From Saururus chinensis (lineage: Eukaryota; Streptophyta; Magnoliopsida; Piperales; Saururaceae): 64,000 bases of DNA. Of the stretch, positions 1 through 21,604 are shown one piece after another (within the stretch, counting starts at the first letter, position 1; each line of letters starts with the position of its first letter). Both the position numbers and the translations under genes were made by a program. Below the pieces are notes generated by a model. That model was given only the letters and a program-made list of their open reading frames with translations, ran no database searches and was not told where the DNA came from. The DNA is taken from assembly GCA_035235625.1 (NCBI GenBank), contig CP141148.1, forward strand, positions 10,101,001 to 10,165,000, read 5' to 3'.

Positions 1-1404
1 TAAACTTTATCTTGTCTTTATTTTTAACATTTATTCACCAAATTAGAGCTTTCCTAGCTTTTGATTCCAAGGAAAGGTTATCCCCTCCCATCCATCCACA
101 TCGGAGCAGCATATTGACATCCCTGTCGGTGGTGATTCCGGCAAGGTGACTTGGTGCTGATTCCAAGTCTTCTACTTTTCTTCCGTTTATCCTCCACCAT
201 CCACTGGTCCTCCTTCAAGTTCCATTGCGCCACTGTCTGCCACTGTCCATTAATGTGGACCCCTTGCTGCCCTTTACCACCACTGTGATTGCATGTTCTC
301 TTTGAGAACCACAGTGATGTTCCTGCCCTTCTGTTGCTGAACTCCTTTCACCACCAAGTTTCCGGTGACTCCGTTGTGCAGAAGTTGGAGCTGCCACCTT
401 CAGTTGACTGGTTCTGGAGTTGTGCTTTGCTAGAGCTAAAGCTCTCCTTCTGTCATTCAAGATAAAGTAAAGCCAAAAATCAAACACTAGTTTGGTTCAT
501 TGTTTCTGACGCCCTATGGTCCTAGCTCTAGACCCACTGAAACCTCTCTATGGATTGACTTGTGAAAGAATAGACCTATCGTCCTTTCGTACTTGCAGTC
601 TAACTCACTTAAAATATACACTTTCCCTGAACTTTCCCTGATCACTATTATTTAGTCTGAATTACGAGACTGTCCTGCATCATAAGGTAATCTGGAAGGC
701 ATTAATTAGAAAACATATATAAAATTTGTTAACAGAGAGCAGAGTCCAAATATGCTGCGAACACAAACTGTAGATTGGGGTGTGGATAGGAAAATAGGGA
801 AAAAAAAGAGCTGTTGGTCAACAAGATACTTGATCTTTGTCATTCTTATAATTTGTTGATATGCAAGATACAAACACTGAAATACTCTTGAGGTTTATCT
901 ACACATTTTATTTCCTTTGAAAATTGTTTTTGCTTTCTTTGGATTAATAATTAAAAAGCATTATCACCTACCTGTATACAAGTGATGATAGTATATTTGC
1001 ATATGTTATAATGCTTATTTGCAGGGGTCTCTTATTTATAATCTGAGTTCTTTGACTGGCCCTAAAAATAGGGATAATGTGATGATAATGATAGGATTGG
1101 GTTTATTAGAGTAGCTGCCCGCTGTTGTTCAAGGCTGACTTAGCAACTAAATTCAATGCAGTTACATCTTTTCTTTTTGGGATTACCCTTTTTGTTTTTT
1201 GTTTACATTGATGTTTTACTTTCTTATTTTGTCTTTTCCAGATATTTATTGTTTATTCTGTCTTTTTTTGTCAGCTAAAAGAATTGGTCCTTTCTATTTA
1301 ACGTAAAAAAGTTCAAGCTAGAAATTGCAAAACGATAGTTTTTTTTTTAAGATTTGATTTGTAAAGCATTTTTAGTCATTGACGTCTTGAAACTTTTTCT
1401 GCAG
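1..1404. other. Non-coding sequence upstream of the first visible CSC1-like exon
   Basis: No exon of the CSC1-like gene is visible here, although the family needs roughly 200 or more further N-terminal residues. The stretch is therefore probably a long intron, with the 5' exons beyond the left edge. It ends in a pyrimidine-rich tract and the acceptor CTGCAG just before 1405. The 90-residue minus-strand frame near 215-487 has no recognisable domain. Confidence 0.6.
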
Positions 1405-4400
1405 AATGATATGGATAAGATTTATAGGAAATGTTTGCCTCTGAAATCTGCATCTGCTGACCAGAAATGTGGATCAAGTAGAATAAGATGTGGTATTTGT
1501 GGTTTTACATCCGGCCCATTTAAACTATACTCTGATGAGCTTCAGCAGAATGTGAAATTTCCTTGTTTTGCTCTTCCAGATTCATTTCTGACTGATAAGG
1601 TTTACATCTTTTTTTGTTATTTCATGGCACTCTTTGTCACCATTTGTTACATATTGAGGTGAGTCAATGGTGTATACATATAAATGCATGATTTTCTTCC
1701 TGTAGGAATGTGGTGCTGCTTTTGTTTTCTTTAAAACACGCTATGCTGCTATTGTTACTTCACAAGTTCTTCAATCTTCAAATCCAATGTTATGGGTCAC
1801 TGAGTTGGCTCCTGCACCAGATGATGTTTACTGGTCTAATCTGTGGATCCCCTACAAACAGCTTTGGATTCGTAGGATTGCAACTCTTCTGGGTTCTCTT
1901 GTGTTTGTCATTCTGTTTTTTCCTCCCGTTACTTTTGTGCAAGGCCTGTCACAATTAGAGAAGTTACAGAGAACATTCCCTTTCTTGAGGGGAATTTTAA
2001 AAAAGTATGTATCAACTCACTCAGTAAGAAGAGTGGAGAATGACATTTGTTTTTGGCTGGATATGGCCTAAATAACAGTGTATTTATTGTCCATCGCAGG
2101 AAATATGTCGGTCAGCTGGTTACAGGATATCTCCCGAGTGTAATTTTATTATTATTTCTTTTGATTGTACCTCCAATAATGATGCTATTTTCAGCTGTCG
2201 AAGGGTCTGTTTCTAGAAGTGGAAGGAAAAGGAGTGCTTGCTACAAGATTCTGTATTTCACAATTTGGAATGTGTTTTTTGTGAACGTACTGTCGGGGAC
2301 CTTCATTGATCAGCTGTACAGTCTTTCTAGTCCAAAAGACATTCCCCCGCGGCTAGCAAAAGCTGTACCAAGGCAGGTGATTATTAGTGTAGAAATTTAA
2401 GCTTTTTTTTCAAAGATAATTTAGTAAGAGTTGAGTGGTTTTGTTAGTTTTAATATTTATAGTAATCTCTTCTCAGACAGACTATGCCTAAAGGGAAGTG
2501 GTTTACTATAGCTTTCTAAGAGGTTCTGGGTCCAATTCTGGTTGAGAACAGTATTTCCTTTTTTGTGCTGTGCATAGTAGGTGTCAATACTAATAATTTG
2601 TTCCTTCTCTGACGATTTAAGCTTTTAGGGGTAGTGGTTAACCCACATATTTGAGTGTCTTTCTTCCTTACATGATATATCTATATCCATATATATATAT
2701 TTGTCACATGAAAGGATCTCTTTTGTATGCCTTATCTGTGCCATTTTTTGTTAAATTTGTGGTGCCTCTTTTAAGTTGTGAAATGTCATTTTTTTAATAT
2801 GGTTAGCTTAAATTGAGCAAAAAAATAAAATGGTTAGCTTAAGTTGACTACTTGAATGTACCGTGTAATCCTGTTTCTTGTCTCGAGTTGGTCTGATCAT
2901 TGTGATTTTCTAGTAGGCTTATCCCGAATTGGGTGAACTTTTGAGCAAACTTGTGATGCAATTCTAGTCCTTCAGCAGGATTCTGTCTCAGCTCCCTCCC
3001 AACAGCAAAGAAACCTTCCGATTCTTATTTTCTTTGCTTTATATGTTTGTGGAATTTGTAACAGATGTAATTATGTTTTAAAACGTTTAACTGGCTGTGA
3101 TTATATTTTTTGGACGCAGCATTATATGTTGCAGTTAATGGAGTTGTCTTATCCTATGCATGCAGGCTACATTTTTCATCACCTACGTTCTCACGTCAGG
3201 TTGGGCAAGTTTGTCTTTTGAAGTCATGCAACCTTTTACCCTTTTGTGTAGCTTATTCCGTAGGTTCATACTGAGGGGTGAGGCTGATCAGGCATCAGTA
3301 CCATCATTTCCATATCATACAGAAATTCCCAGAGTACTCCTATTTGGGCTCCTTGGCTTTACGTGTTCCATTTTGGCACCTTTAATTTTGCCATTCTTGC
3401 TGGTATATTTTCTTCTAGGCTATGTGGTATATCGCAACCAGGTACTGTTCTGTGCATGAATGATATCATGATTTTCCTTACATAGTTGCACTTTAAAACT
3501 TGCTTTTTTGGTGTCAACTTGTGTTTTAGGATTGATTTTTTCTGTTTCTTTCCTGCTTGTTACTTGCTGGTCAATTAGGTAGTCATTCTCTGCTCTTCCA
3601 GTGGTATATCAACTGTCTTGACATCAGTTTATCTTAGAAAACATTTATCCTTGTAAGAGAAGGCATCAAACAGATGTCTTTCTAACAGAAATTAATTAAT
3701 TACAAGCTACACATTTAAATAAGAGCTGTTATACACCATGAAGTTTTGGAAAACATTAGTAACACCCGTGAGTTCAAGTTTCCTACTAGGAGTGATTCAA
3801 AACGAATATCAACCTAGATCTTATTGGGAATACTGTTTAAACTGTTAGTGCGACCTACATTTCTATCAGAACTTTATTTTAATTTTTCTTTGTTTGAAGT
3901 CAGATGCCAATCAAAACCTCATATCTAATTTATCTGACCAAAATGACTTTCATTAATACTAATCAGCGTTGAATATAAACCGTATATCTTAAAAGCCCCC
4001 TCAATCTTGGATGCATCCTGGTATTTTGAGTGAGGCTGCACTTAGGATACCATGATCTGGGTATAAACTGCTATAGAAGTGTCATAGGACCATGCTATGA
4101 AAGCTGACAGAGACAAGTGGATGTTACTAATTTTTTCTCTTAAAATTTCAATTTAGTTTTAGCAACTACTTGCTTTAAAATATCGGATGTGCACATTTCT
4201 TTTAGGCCCACAGCTCCCTGATGAGTAGGTTTGCCAACACTCTGTTGTACATCTACAAGCTTGCCTGTTGTGTCCACTTATGAGCTTGACAATTTATCAA
4301 ATCTTTTAAAAGTTATACGCAAACATTATTTTGCATCTCTTTTCCATAATTCCATCTATACCTGATGGTTTTTTCCATAGTCATAGTTTATTTTTTAGAA

Positions 4401-8433: not shown

Positions 8434-8747
8434 GCTGAGTTGAGTCGCGCCAGCTTGTAACCCGAGCTCCGGGGGCATTAAGGTGGTGAGGACGGTTAAA
8501 CCCGTTTCTCGGGGTCGGGTCAGTTCTGCAATTTCTGGCTCGCCCGTTCCAAGTCGTGCAGTGAACTTGTGCGGTCTGGGCGAAAGCTTGAATCGTCCCG
8601 GCTCTTACAAAGGAGGGAACCGCGTCAGGCTGGCTTCACAGAGCAGCGACTACCTCCCGCTGTCGACAGTGGAAGGATAACGAGCCGGCGCTGGTCGAGC
8701 CCATTCGTGACCCTGTGAACTGGTCTCATTCGAACCGCCACCTTTTT
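8434..8747 (+). ncRNA. 7SL RNA (signal recognition particle RNA) gene
   Basis: The RNA scaffold of the signal recognition particle directs secretory and membrane ribosomes to the ER. Plant 7SL landmarks appear in order: AGCTTGTAACCCGAG (8452-8466), GGGGGCATTAAGGTGGTG (8471-8488), GTCTGGGCGAAAGCTTG (about 8574-8590), ATCGTCCCGGCTCTTA, AAAGGAGG, then the SRP54-binding helix region GTCAGGCTGGCTTCACAG (about 8624-8641) with GAGCAGCGACTACC. The 3' part contains AACTGGTCTCA and ends at a T5 run (8743-8747), a normal polymerase III terminator. The 314-nt length suits plant 7SL. With USE, TATA, start spacing and terminator all in place, it is probably functional. The small insertion after CCCGAG (TCC before the G run) and the exact start are uncertain. 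Confidence 0.9.
8743..8747 (+). terminator. Pol III T-run terminator of the 7SL gene
   Basis: TTTTT directly follows the 3' domain (GAACCGCCACC), where plant 7SL transcripts normally end. Confidence 0.75.
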
Positions 8748-18102: not shown

Positions 18103-18235
18103 GAGGGCAGTGAGGGCTAGGGAAAGATGGCCAAAGCCGAGATGAGGGCAGTAAGGGAGAGGGAAAGATGACTGAGGCCGAGATGAGGGCAATGAGAGCA
18201 GTGAGGGCGAGGACAAGATGAGGGTAGTAAGGGTA
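18103..18235. repeat. 41-bp GA-rich tandem repeat in the MULE right arm
   Basis: Units starting at about 18103, 18144 and 18185 share GAGGGCAGTGAGGG, GGAAAGATG and GCCGAGAT, with decay in the third. The left arm has only a weak, diverged counterpart. Confidence 0.65.
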
Positions 18236-18357
18236 TTGAAGGTGAGGGCAAAATGATGGCTCCGAAAGGGAATGAGGCCCAGAAGACTAAAAGCGATATA
18301 GGAGCGAACGGACAGATGAAGTCAGAAATGGCAAAGAGGATGCTCTCCAGGAGGTGA

Positions 18358-18707
18358 TGTTGTGGACGTTTGTCCACAACGGCGTGGTGGCCGGCATGGG
18401 TGACGGGAGTGGCGCAGGGAGGCCGGGAAAGGGGAGAGCGGATGGCATGGCCATCAGACAGAAAGGGGAGAAGCACAGAAGAAAGGGGAGAAGCAAAGAC
18501 AATTAATCATTCACTAATTCACTTAGGGCGCAGCCCTTACATTTAAATAAGCAAACTAATGGGCTCTCTAACAGATGCCTAAGGCCCGTTAACATAATTA
18601 AATAAAATACTAATTAACCTAATTACCCCTATTATATAAAAAGCCCTAAATACCTAAATACGTGGCCCCAGTGGCACCCCCTAGCAGCCCCTAGGACGTT
18701 CACAACA
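18358..18707 (-). repeat. 3' LTR of the nested retrotransposon
   Basis: A 350-bp terminal repeat, almost identical to 21117-21474. Its outer edge carries a perfect 9-bp inverted repeat, GTTGTGGAC-GTTT-GTCCACAAC (18359-18380). Confidence 0.95.
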
Positions 18708-19008
18708 TTCCACCATGCTTCGCTTGCGCATCACCTCGTCCTCGAGGTGACCTAAAACTCTAGGCATCGGGCCCACCAAAGCTCCACTGTGAACAGCGGG
18801 TCCAGAACTGTGGATGAGACACGCCAAATGATGGAGATAGTGGGTCACTACTCAAGACGTGCAGAAGCCAGCACAAACATGATGGAAGTGCAGATACAAA
18901 ACCCAAGGGGAGGACAAAGGAGCGGCCCGACTTGTTGGTTGCAGGACAAAATAGACTATCCACATAGGTCTCCAACAAGCGGGGTCATCCCAATGACTAT
19001 AGAGCACC

Positions 19009-20847
19009 CTAAGACTGCCCATAGAGGGCATCAGCAGACAGGAGCACAGTCGGCCCACAGAGGGCATCAGACAGCACCATGGTTGGCTTGTGCAGCTCGT
19101 AGAAGGCAGGCAAATGCGTAAGAAGTGACAAGAACCAGTAGATATGGGTGGGGTCTGGTTTGGATGTATTCAAAACCTGTTGGCCTAAAACACCCCAATA
19201 AGGTCGACTTCCCAAGTTGGACTCACATCCTGCACCATTTCCAGCCCGGTCAGGCCAAATCCAAAGCATACCTACAAGAAAATTCAGGCTGCTCTTTAGA
19301 TAGAAAGAAAATCCCATAACAAGTGCAATAGCTGGTTCCACGGTGATCCAGGACTCATCTCCGAATCCATCTGCAGTAGAAAAGAGGAGCTGACAATGGA
19401 GCAAAAGTAGGGACCCTCCCGTGACCAACACCCACCACAGAGAAATCTGGCACGCTTCATAGCCCAGCCAAAATTGTGGTGCGTACTGCTCAGGACATAG
19501 ATCTTGGCTGGATGGATTTTCCGAATGGCCGCTATGCATGACAGGGGAAGTTTGCCAAGGTTCCAGGGCCCTCCAACTAAGAGCCAAACCCGCATGCATC
19601 TGTTGCCCGAAATTTCCTGCCCATAACTTCAATCTGTCATCGTGCTTGGGAAGATTCGGTGAGAGGAGGGTGAGCCAACGGTCAACCGAGAAATCTTCGG
19701 CAAAAATCTTACAAGTGAAGATTTCATGATACGGCAGGGGAGTTCCAAACATGAAAATCAGAATGAGATAGCAATGAAAATCCCCTAAGATCAAGGCCAT
19801 CCGCAGGAACATCCCCGATTGCTCGTAGTTAACAAAGCGGGAGGTGGCCGGAGCCGGCAAAGAATCCGGCGAAAATTTTGGGAGGCAGATTGAGGCAGTG
19901 GCGGAAATCCCGGCAACCCAAATCCGTTCGTCCGGCAACCTACGGGAGGAGGTGCAGTGCACCGGTGATTGGAGTGCAGGCTGCTCCGGCGGCTGGAGAG
20001 CAGGCTGTTCCGACGGAATAGGCGCTCGATCTCCATTCCGATCAGATCCAGCGGCAGGCATATCCCCCACCGCGGTTGCACAGAAGCTTCTCCCTCCTGC
20101 TATCACGTCCGACCCGAAGGTGTAGGCGGAGAAATGGCCCGAGGCCGGGAGAATGATGTCAGCTCTGGCGGAGAGCGAGAACAGGGGACCGGTGAGCACT
20201 TCCCAGCGCGGGCGGCGGAGGAGGCCGGTGGTCAGGCTGCTGCAGCGCCTGCAGCAACGCCTCTTCTGTATTGGCGCCGGCGCGGATTTCAGCCCCACTG
20301 GCCTTCCTTCAGAACCCATCTTGTGCATCCTATCCTCCGGCAGTGGATTCGAGACCATCCGGTGCGACTCCTCCTCCGCCGCGTATGCCTCTAGCACGGT
20401 TGCTCCAAACACCTCTTCTATCCACTCCATCACGGTGGCCATCAGGGACAACCTTCTGCTCCAGATGAATCGGAGCATTGGGTACTCAGGCCAAGCGGAT
20501 GGGTAGGACGCGAAGTGCCAGTCCAGAGAGAAGGTGGTACTGTGGCTGAAGGCCCGTTTGAACCATGGCCGGAGACGCAGTTGCTCCCTTCCCAGCAAGA
20601 TCGTCTCCTTCCCTATGAACAAATGCAGACGCTCGTGCAGAACGCCCACCAGCAATTTCTCCCACAAATCACTCTTCGGTTGGAGGTGCGAACCATCCTC
20701 ATCCCTGTCAAAATCCCGGAAGAATTGCAGCGGAAACACTAGCGGCATCCCCTTCTTGTACTTACCCAGATCGGTTGAGGCGGCCCGCTGTTCCATTGCT
20801 GACATGTCCAGGTCCATGCTCCAGTAGACCAGGTCGAGCAAGAGCTT
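19009..20847 (-). CDS. Unrecognised long open frame of the nested retrotransposon (about 612 codons)
   Basis: This frame is open from just after an in-frame TAG (20850-20848) to a stop at 19009. Its first ATG is at about 20817. It is in the same frame as the gag-like ORF upstream. The N-terminal quarter looks globular: VFPLQFFRDFDRDEDG, LWEKLLVGVLHERLHLFIG, RPWFKRAFSHSTTFSLDWHF, YPMLRFIWSRRLSLMATVME and EWIEEVFGATVLEAYAAEEE. A proline-rich middle contains a short duplication (EQPALQPPEQPALQ). The C-terminal part is rich in Trp and Leu. There is no zinc knuckle, protease, polymerase or integrase motif. It may be a gag-derived protein, a captured host fragment or a chance GC-rich frame. I do not recognise it. 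Confidence 0.45.
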   Translation of the reverse strand, partial: KLLLDLVYWSMDLDMSAMEQRAASTDLGKYKKGMPLVFPLQFFRDFDRDEDGSHLQPKSDLWEKLLVGVLHERLHLFIGKETILLGREQLRLRPWFKRAFSHSTTFSLDWHFASYPSAWPEYPMLRFIWSRRLSLMATVMEWIEEVFGATVLEAYAAEEESHRMVSNPLPEDRMHKMGSEGRPVGLKSAPAPIQKRRCCRRCSSLTTGLLRRPRWEVLTGPLFSLSARADIILPASGHFSAYTFGSDVIAGGRSFCATAVGDMPAAGSDRNGDRAPIPSEQPALQPPEQPALQSPVHCTSSRRLPDERIWVAGISATASICLPKFSPDSLPAPATSRFVNYEQSGMFLRMALILGDFHCYLILIFMFGTPLPYHEIFTCKIFAEDFSVDRWLTLLSPNLPKHDDRLKLWAGNFGQQMHAGLALSWRALEPWQTSPVMHSGHSENPSSQDLCPEQYAPQFWLGYEACQISLWWVLVTGGSLLLLHCQLLFSTADGFGDESWITVEPAIALVMGFSFYLKSSLNFLVGMLWIWPDRAGNGAGCESNLGSRPYWGVLGQQVLNTSKPDPTHIYWFLSLLTHLPAFYELHKPTMVLSDALCGPTVLLSADALYGQS

Positions 20848-21081
20848 CTACAGTCGAGGACTGGCCGGAGCCAGCAAGGGTGGTGATGGCAGATCAGCGA
20901 AGGGCAGAACATCGGGCAACCGTGGTGGAGGAGACGGGGCGGCCTGGTGCAGCACCTTGGCTGCTTGGGATGCTGCCAGGGACATTACCATCCTCTTCAC
21001 ATCCTCGAGCCTCTCCTCAACCTTCGTGATCAGAGTAGTCATCGCAGCCATCTCTGTCTGTAGATCCGGCGGCTCTGGCAT
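20848..21081 (-). CDS. Gag-like N-terminal ORF (77 aa) of the nested retrotransposon
   Basis: The ATG at 21081-21079 lies about 20 bp after the primer binding site. The protein starts MPEPPDLQTEMAAMTTLITK, continues with a predicted coiled coil (VEERLEDVKRMVMSLAASQ), then a proline-rich stretch. That order is common at the start of plant retrotransposon gag proteins. It ends at TAG (20850-20848), and the frame stays open for about 612 codons beyond. The TAG may be a single nonsense change or a readthrough point. Confidence 0.55.
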   Translation of the reverse strand: MPEPPDLQTEMAAMTTLITKVEERLEDVKRMVMSLAASQAAKVLHQAAPSPPPRLPDVLPFADLPSPPLLAPASPRL

Positions 21082-21102
21082 GTATAGTGGCCAAGGATTG
21101 AT

Positions 21103-21115
21103 GGCTCTGATACCA
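21103..21115 (-). promoter_or_regulatory. Primer binding site complementary to initiator tRNA-Met
   Basis: Read on the minus strand this is TGGTATCAGAGCC, the standard plant tRNA-iMet primer site, one base inside the 5' LTR. It fixes the element's orientation. Confidence 0.93.
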
Positions 21116-21116
21116 A

Positions 21117-21474
21117 TGTTGTGGACGTTTGTCCACAACAGCGTGGTGGCCGGCATGGGTGACGGGAGTGGCGCAGGGAGGCCGGGAAAGGGGAGAGCGG
21201 ATGGCATGGCCATCAGACAGAAAAGGGAGAAGCACAGAAGAAAGGGGAGAAGCAAAGACAATTAATCATTCACTAATTCACTTAGGGCGCAGCCCTTACA
21301 TTTAAATAAGCAAACTAATGGGCTCTCTAACAGATGCCTAAGGCCCGTTAACATAATTAAATAAAATACTAATTAACTTAATTACCTAATTACCCCTATT
21401 ATATAAAAAGCCCTAAATACCTAAATACGTGGCCCCAGTGGCACCCCCTAGCAGCCCCTAGGACGTTCACAACA
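21117..21474 (-). repeat. 5' LTR of the nested retrotransposon
   Basis: 358 bp; it has an 8-bp tandem insertion (TTAATTAC) relative to the other LTR. A TATA-like TTTATATAATAGG lies on the minus strand near the centre. Confidence 0.95.
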
Positions 21475-21604
21475 GGTGAAGGTGGCGAGGGAGATGAATA
21501 GTCACTACTAAGCAGGAGGAGACATGACTGAGCAGGAGTAGACATGAAGAAGCGGGAAAAGGCATTTGGGGAGGGTATTTCAGTCAAAAGCGCTCTTACA
21601 TATA

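Follow-up and report, generated by a model that had tools for sequence, protein, structure and literature searches.

An LTR retrotransposon in the genome of Saururus chinensis contains a long reading frame that is a mosaic of captured host-gene pieces and a 3' module common to other copies. It lies in a stretch of 64,000 nucleotides, hereafter referred to as the window (assembly GCA_035235625.1, contig CP141148.1, positions 10,101,001 to 10,165,000), and its frame had been singled out in a preliminary description as a novel gag-like protein, a captured host sequence or a product of stop codon readthrough. The observation is genuine, and captured host sequence is the best reading of it. The more interesting fact lies outside the coordinates of this frame: among related elements the long frame recurs, while the cargo does not. 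What the family seems to preserve is a leader peptide and, for the most part, an open frame, with little regard to the encoded content. Taken as a whole, our proposal, which we hold to be probable, is that of a non-autonomous retrotransposon of the Ty3/gypsy type whose interior consists of captured host pieces, coding for parts of a plant organelle RNA recognition (PORR) protein and of an oxalyl-CoA synthetase (AAE3), together with modules swapped with sister elements.

The element occupies positions 18358..21474 of the window on the minus strand (3,117 bp) and displays the hallmarks of an LTR retrotransposon, i.e. near-identical LTRs with TG...CA ends, a target-site duplication GGTGA on both flanks (18353-18357 and 21475-21479) and a primer binding site. 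In sense orientation, the 5' LTR is found at 21117..21474 (358 bp, minus) and the 3' LTR at 18358..18707 (350 bp, minus), while the primer site TGGTATCAGAGCC (21103..21115, minus), which we take to be of the initiator-Met tRNA type, directly follows the upstream LTR. As previously noted, the two LTRs differ by two substitutions and one indel, the latter of 8 bp. The resulting Kimura distance of 0.0057 marks a recent insertion, presumably about 0.2-0.4 million years old at commonly used plant rates. Just outside the element, purine-rich 41-bp direct repeats are found at window positions 18103-18234.

On the minus strand, the frame runs from 21081 to 19009 and comprises 77 codons, a TAG at 20848-20850 and then 612 codons up to a terminal stop at 19009-19011. 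The start after the primer site and the single TAG after codon 77 are as described before; instead of almost reaching the 3' LTR, the frame ends about 300 bp ahead of it, and upstream of the supposed start it is open as well, beginning with an ATG in U5 (21211-21213) and continuing through the primer site. This upstream part corresponds to a predicted U5-encoded leader peptide (21109..21213, minus) that is in frame with the main frame and open through the primer site, followed by a shared gag-leader-like N-terminal segment (20959..21096, minus), whereas the C-terminal tail, likewise common to relatives, is located at 19012..19095 (minus). The 612-codon frame is longer than chance gives: in 300 mononucleotide shuffles of the element interior, evaluated in all six frames, the longest open stretch averaged 143 codons with a maximum of 282, and the two remaining sense frames of the real element contain 19 and 24 stops from leader to tail.

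A Pfam search of both frame pieces with E values up to 10 returned no Retrotrans_gag, pol domain or zinc knuckle, in line with the preliminary description; PORR alone exceeded the cut-off, besides one weak spectrin-like match. On these grounds a novel gag domain was rejected, and of the gag-like option there survive at most about 45 residues after the primer site, which are common to relatives. TR-GAG is a class of gag-only elements, and the window frame has no Retrotrans_gag. LARD and TRIM elements are without coding capacity between their LTRs, unlike the family described here, in which the window copy has its 612-codon frame and several relatives have long open frames too, with 600-800 codons in several copies. 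In other respects these elements are alike (for TRIM, see the available part of PMC4717578), with LTRs, a primer site, no pol and a presumed mobilization in trans.

The cargo begins directly after the TAG with a captured PORR fragment (20542..20847, minus; Pfam E value 6.6e-8), followed by a captured AAE3 fragment (20281..20526, minus) that covers approximately residues 268-346 and was recognized by a PDB sequence match. A second AAE3 fragment (20104..20259, minus; residues ~195-249), whose PDB alignment is weak when taken by itself, is supported by a DNA match to the locus L054. For the whole protein, the match to PDB sequences reaches 3.7e-20. The two AAE3 pieces are permuted, as the later residues precede the earlier ones. 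The frame further contains a segment common to the tandem elements of the L040 complex (19858..20280, minus; 78-80% amino acid identity, 93-94% DNA identity over the core) and the 3' module (19033..19872, minus), which shares 58-87% of its amino acids with six other fetched copies. No Pfam domain was detected in this 3' half, although it is common to other copies. By eye, the 3' module was suspected to be a homologue of the post-pol part of L044, the helper candidate discussed below, which the comparison did not confirm. The 3' module also occurs elsewhere in the genome, within open frames that are 746 and 840 codons long, and further matches at G000:C3:19022287-19022616 and C6:3742359-3742694 sit in open frames of 1,063 and 887 codons.

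Possible sources of the host pieces can be traced to different extents. The PORR fragment shares 83-84% DNA identity with an uninterrupted PORR-like genomic frame (L053, C7:29119400-29120300), in which 391 codons are open without interruption around C7:29119690-29120061. For AAE3, five matches cluster on C11 and likely represent host AAE3 genes, yet their identity to the window cargo is just 63-65% at the amino acid level, so that the donor is not pinned down. Another sequence at C2:28356300-28357600 contains both pieces in native order; it adjoins LTR-like sequence and looks like a second carrier, for which reason C2:28356984 was rejected as the donor. The option of a captured host sequence is thus borne out by the PORR and AAE3 fragments.

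Relatives were collected by an LTR search in which the best 40 out of 1,243 candidates were scored, yielding 41 matches; all family counts therefore refer to the nearest copies. From 20 fetched stretches and the window, 16 LTR pairs were obtained, two of which derive from the L040 complex with its three LTRs. Four stretches (L046, L047, L048, L050) were left out, as no paired LTR of the window element's family was used within them, and the 10-kb pair L044/L045 served only as a helper candidate. A 5-bp duplication flanks 14 of 15 insertions, counting the L040 complex once, with L033 as the exception, and the motif TGGTATC is present in 13 of the 16 pairs (absent from L040b, L042 and L043). Past the LTR, DNA likeness to the window element persists until position ~510-570 in eight of the 15 other pairs and is lost between ~310 and 410 in the remaining seven. 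At the opposite end, ten of the 15 share the 350-380 bp that precede the 3' LTR, and five share a shorter part; this stretch includes the 3' non-coding region of the window element (18708..19011, minus). Between these related ends, the middle region differs among the LTR pairs. The L040 complex itself (C3:17307400-17313500) is a tandem arrangement of three LTRs and two interiors with the middle LTR in common; its outer duplication reads TTCCT, and both interiors carry the AAE3-derived segment of the window element.

The variety of the cargo is also evident from a Pfam scan of the relatives' frames, which covered six members and then ten further frames at an E value of 0.01. TPP_enzyme_M (L033, L034), Cpn60 (L035) and PA (L049) were found above the cut-off, DUF1005 (L031), Pyr_redox_2 (L035) and TPR (L041) below it. 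Nine of the ten further frames gave nothing at E 0.01, and L038 gave two weak hits below the cut-off. Matches to solved structures identify acetolactate synthase (4e-30) and CPN60-type chaperonins (up to 1e-86) among the cargoes. In three copies, the CPN60 cargo is contiguous over 234 amino acids, while a host gene at C5:10402519-10403957 matches it in six separate pieces. The cargo thus lacks the host introns, which indicates its capture from spliced RNA. The same observation bears on an alternative in which the cargo was captured as DNA, for instance by a nested insertion or by a Pack-MULE or Helitron within an LTR element. This is compatible with the window's PORR and AAE3 pieces, whose genomic matches are uninterrupted stretches, so that intron loss is not judgeable for them; but given a CPN60 cargo that runs without a break across the splits of host genes, as well as regular 5-bp duplications and primer sites, we regard capture as DNA as very unlikely.

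How modules may be exchanged is illustrated by the closest sister, L031. It is 98.6% identical to the window element over element positions 1073-3069 and hardly aligns over positions 311-1072, where both cargo and leader are abruptly replaced by others; the leader of L031 resembles the one of L044. This sharp breakpoint fits strand switching between co-packaged RNAs. Differences between the two copies are unevenly distributed: the frame has eight in 1,391 bp, while 606 bp of downstream region and LTR have 19, 17 of them transitions. This may reflect a strand switch in recent times or else stronger cytosine deamination close to the LTR. Family RNAs may be packaged together with RNAs of a helper element and of the host, and jumps of the reverse transcriptase could then generate the mosaics. 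The putative helper would be a chromovirus with related LTRs. L044, which sits in a 10-kb LTR pair, has LTRs related to those of the window element (84-88%), and L044/L045 encode Retrotrans_gag (3e-17), Integrase_H2C2 (8.5e-19) and SH3_Tf2-1 (2.2e-19) above the cut-off as well as a protease (3.8e-4) and Chromo (0.0018) below it. A Pfam search for reverse transcriptase was negative in the window element and in six scanned frames of L044, which was therefore rejected as an intact helper.

The in-frame TAG, raised in the preliminary description as a possible site of readthrough and as a feature that might be fixed in the family, or else unique to this copy, turned out to be neither. Among four other copies that span the position, three have a sense codon (L051 on C7, L052 at C1:35192548 and L061 at C1:32253291), and one, L062 (C8:7503234; stretch C8:7503200-7503620), has the window's TAG at the same codon. 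L062 is a decayed copy: its 365 aligned bp contain two additional in-frame stops, and its matched part contains four stops. It is no closer to the window copy (12.2% divergence) than L051 is (9.6%), and a tree groups the window copy with L062 at weak support (54/77); descent and repeated mutation are equally possible origins of the common TAG. L051 carries a stop of its own at another place, and the length differences among the window copy, L051 and L052 near the TAG are multiples of three. Programmed readthrough would link a short gag with a second, long product; in its favor, the unchanged frame on either side of the TAG and the presence of this TAG in L062 could be cited. With sense codons in three of the four copies, further stops in the fourth, and other members such as L033 and L034 that reach the tail with no stop at a comparable place, readthrough was rejected as a feature of the family and is very unlikely.

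The long frame, too, is not confined to the window copy, but recurs with other cargo. Leader and tail could be anchored in 12 of the 16 LTR pairs, albeit weakly in L036, L038 and L049, and they lie in one frame in eight of these 12; in L033 and L034 the frame is uninterrupted from leader to tail. Disablements, i.e. stops plus frameshifts as counted by dynamic programming between the anchors, amount to 0-3 in 11 of the 12 pairs and to six in L038, compared with 8-16 each on the reverse strand. These counts exclude L035, L041, L042 and L043, which have no tail anchor; the first three of them have frames that span 749-807 codons, and in L043 no piece is longer than 290. Across the 12 anchored pairs, 23 disablements were observed versus 29.7 expected if every element was fully open at insertion and then decayed neutrally at its own LTR rate (P of so few 0.11). 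Therefore, the elements taken together look open at insertion and seem to have had no special protection thereafter. In this respect the window copy is exceptional, with two disablements versus 0.45 expected for its age. Each of its stops recurs, the TAG in L062 and the tail stop in L057, and a stop-bearing lineage may therefore have moved.

Whether openness is maintained at all can be judged from stops and indels that separate the copies. Between L033 and L034, no stop was found versus 9.7 expected, and stop depletion is significant in this kind of comparison for one of 11 pairs; window and L051 show none (2 versus 2.2 expected). In the 3' module, stops are below expectation in all 21 pairs, with P values of 0.03 or less in four, where the compared pairs overlap and share branches and the copies came from a protein search that favors intact frames. 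As to indels, across seven pairs nine of 11 within the frame are multiples of three versus four of 20 downstream (Fisher P 0.0017), compared with two of 13 in LTR pairs, and 17 of 24 gaps of the 3' module relative to the window copy are multiples of three, events being counted once per pair. An open frame might also be a mere by-product of sense, in-frame exon capture and youth, with nothing that maintains it. Several elements are indeed young (LTR distance 0.006-0.03), captured exons bring open frames with them, decay after insertion is neutral, ten of 11 pairs are without significant stop depletion, and the two stops of the window copy recur in other copies. Such a by-product would, however, not be expected to leave frames open across junctions and segments without detected host origin and between copies about 20% diverged, nor to keep leader and tail in one frame in eight of 12 pairs despite different cargo lengths, nor to confine the preference for multiples of three to the frame. 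We thus consider it unlikely.

The dN/dS test between copies that had been suggested gave a divided result, in which the leader fell below the null and the body did not do so significantly. The N-terminal leader segment has a pN/pS of 0.39 versus 0.69 under the null (8 copies) and the U5 segment 0.49 versus 0.80 (13 copies); none of 60 star-tree simulations was as low for either segment, and third codon positions vary most. Judged by these substitution patterns, the leader alone looks constrained in its amino acids. For the body, omega ranges from 0.37 to 0.64 in 11 pairs, versus 0.56-0.86 under a neutral null that uses a context-free spectrum taken from LTR differences. No pair is below the null at P<0.05 (lowest P 0.055), and ten of 11 are below its mean, so that weak constraint on the host-derived parts is possible. 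A plain dN/dS below 1 was rejected as proof of protein function in the body, since the neutral null alone yields 0.56-0.86. In the 3' module, omega is 0.50-0.95 versus 0.55-0.74 under the null (none of 21 pairs below at P<0.05), and differences are spread evenly over the three codon positions. In sum, the body looks free of significant amino acid constraint, but depleted in stops and frame-breaking indels.

These data also bear on a reading in which the chimeric protein is functional, as a gag-like partner or a domesticated host protein, and selection on its sequence keeps the frame. The constrained leader segments would agree with this, as would the omega values of 0.37-0.43 in five of the 11 pairs, the tendency of ten pairs toward values below the null mean, and the scarcity of differences between window and L031 within the frame, which is likewise explicable by a more recent strand switch. 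Yet the cargo varies between copies, the 3' module evolves at the neutral null, the pair L033-L034 with acetolactate synthase cargo has an omega of 0.63 versus a null of 0.65, and the frames, once inserted, deteriorate at a roughly neutral rate, from which it follows that host domestication is not general. A functional chimeric protein therefore appears rather improbable.

We tentatively favor selection on the frame only, while granting it less than an even standing: any host sequence may be carried as long as the RNA can be read from the conserved leader to near the 3' end, which would make translatability in cis a pass for mobility. Mostly RNAs that are open from the U5/gag leader to the tail would then transpose, with a constrained leader peptide and the remainder of the protein as filler, and an element with random cargo would move mainly when this cargo leaves the frame open. 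The pattern suggests that translatability, and not the protein itself, may matter for the spread of the family. Why open-frame RNAs should transpose is the least certain part of the proposal, and the causes considered here are possible rather than probable. A long untranslated remainder after a stop has a role in RNA surveillance, and one candidate cause is that nonsense-mediated decay or RDR6-type silencing spares transcripts whose translation extends to near the 3' end. According to the accessible part of PMC12535099, nonsense-mediated decay targets early-stop transcripts, and transposon RNAs with poor translation enter RDR6-dependent silencing. Against this explanation, the 3' UTR behind the stop of the window frame would still comprise about 300 nt and a portion of the LTR, which is not short. 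Alternatively, translation in cis could be needed for packaging, or the tail might have another role. In yeast, a pool of non-translating RNA is required for packaging (PMC12786077, as far as available), which calls for caution regarding a simple cis-translation model.

Gene capture by LTR retrotransposons has precedents. Bs1 of maize has captured three host genes and contains a chimeric frame that is translated (Elrouby and Bureau, cited in the available part of the review PMC13317346). Like Bs1, the window element has several host-gene fragments, PORR and AAE3, within its LTRs, and these are fused into one chimeric, putatively translated frame that continues in register across the TAG. Unlike Bs1, for which that review reports one set of three genes, the present family combines varied cargo with shared modules and a recurring frame. 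A survey of rice, sorghum and maize counted 672 rice and 1,343 sorghum genes captured by LTR retrotransposons (Jiang and Ramachandran 2013, PMC3726574) and, in the portion at hand, considers many of the rice genes neutral pseudogenes and neutral decay frequent. These captures resemble ours in that LTR retrotransposons carry host gene sequence, while constant ends with exchangeable in-frame cargo, as found here, are not described for them in that portion. Captured genes are usually in sense orientation (PMC7264820, in part). The 2026 review, which in its accessible sections also covers surveys of captured genes, further cites the long form of Veju and BARE-1, mosaics that arose via abnormal template switching between co-packaged RNAs; our element is likewise a mosaic, and a frame kept through host cargo is not described for those elements there. 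In the literature searched, with most subscription papers outside it, no description was found of a family that combines constant ends with exchangeable in-frame cargo and with conservation of the frame only. Gene capture of the Bs1 type is known, and exchangeable in-frame cargo between constant ends is, as far as could be searched, new.

Capture by LTR elements as such is already known, and much of it is called neutral decay in the rice survey (PMC3726574, in part). If selection indeed acts on the frame only, the family would amount to a natural exon-shuffling machine whose products are filtered for open chimeric frames, and new chimeric proteins would be screened for translatability before landing. 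It would also raise a question that is testable by sequence alone, namely whether RNA surveillance decides which retrotransposon RNAs move. Elsewhere in the window, positions 8434-8745 of the plus strand contain a plant signal recognition particle RNA with a full-length Rfam match of 205 bits.
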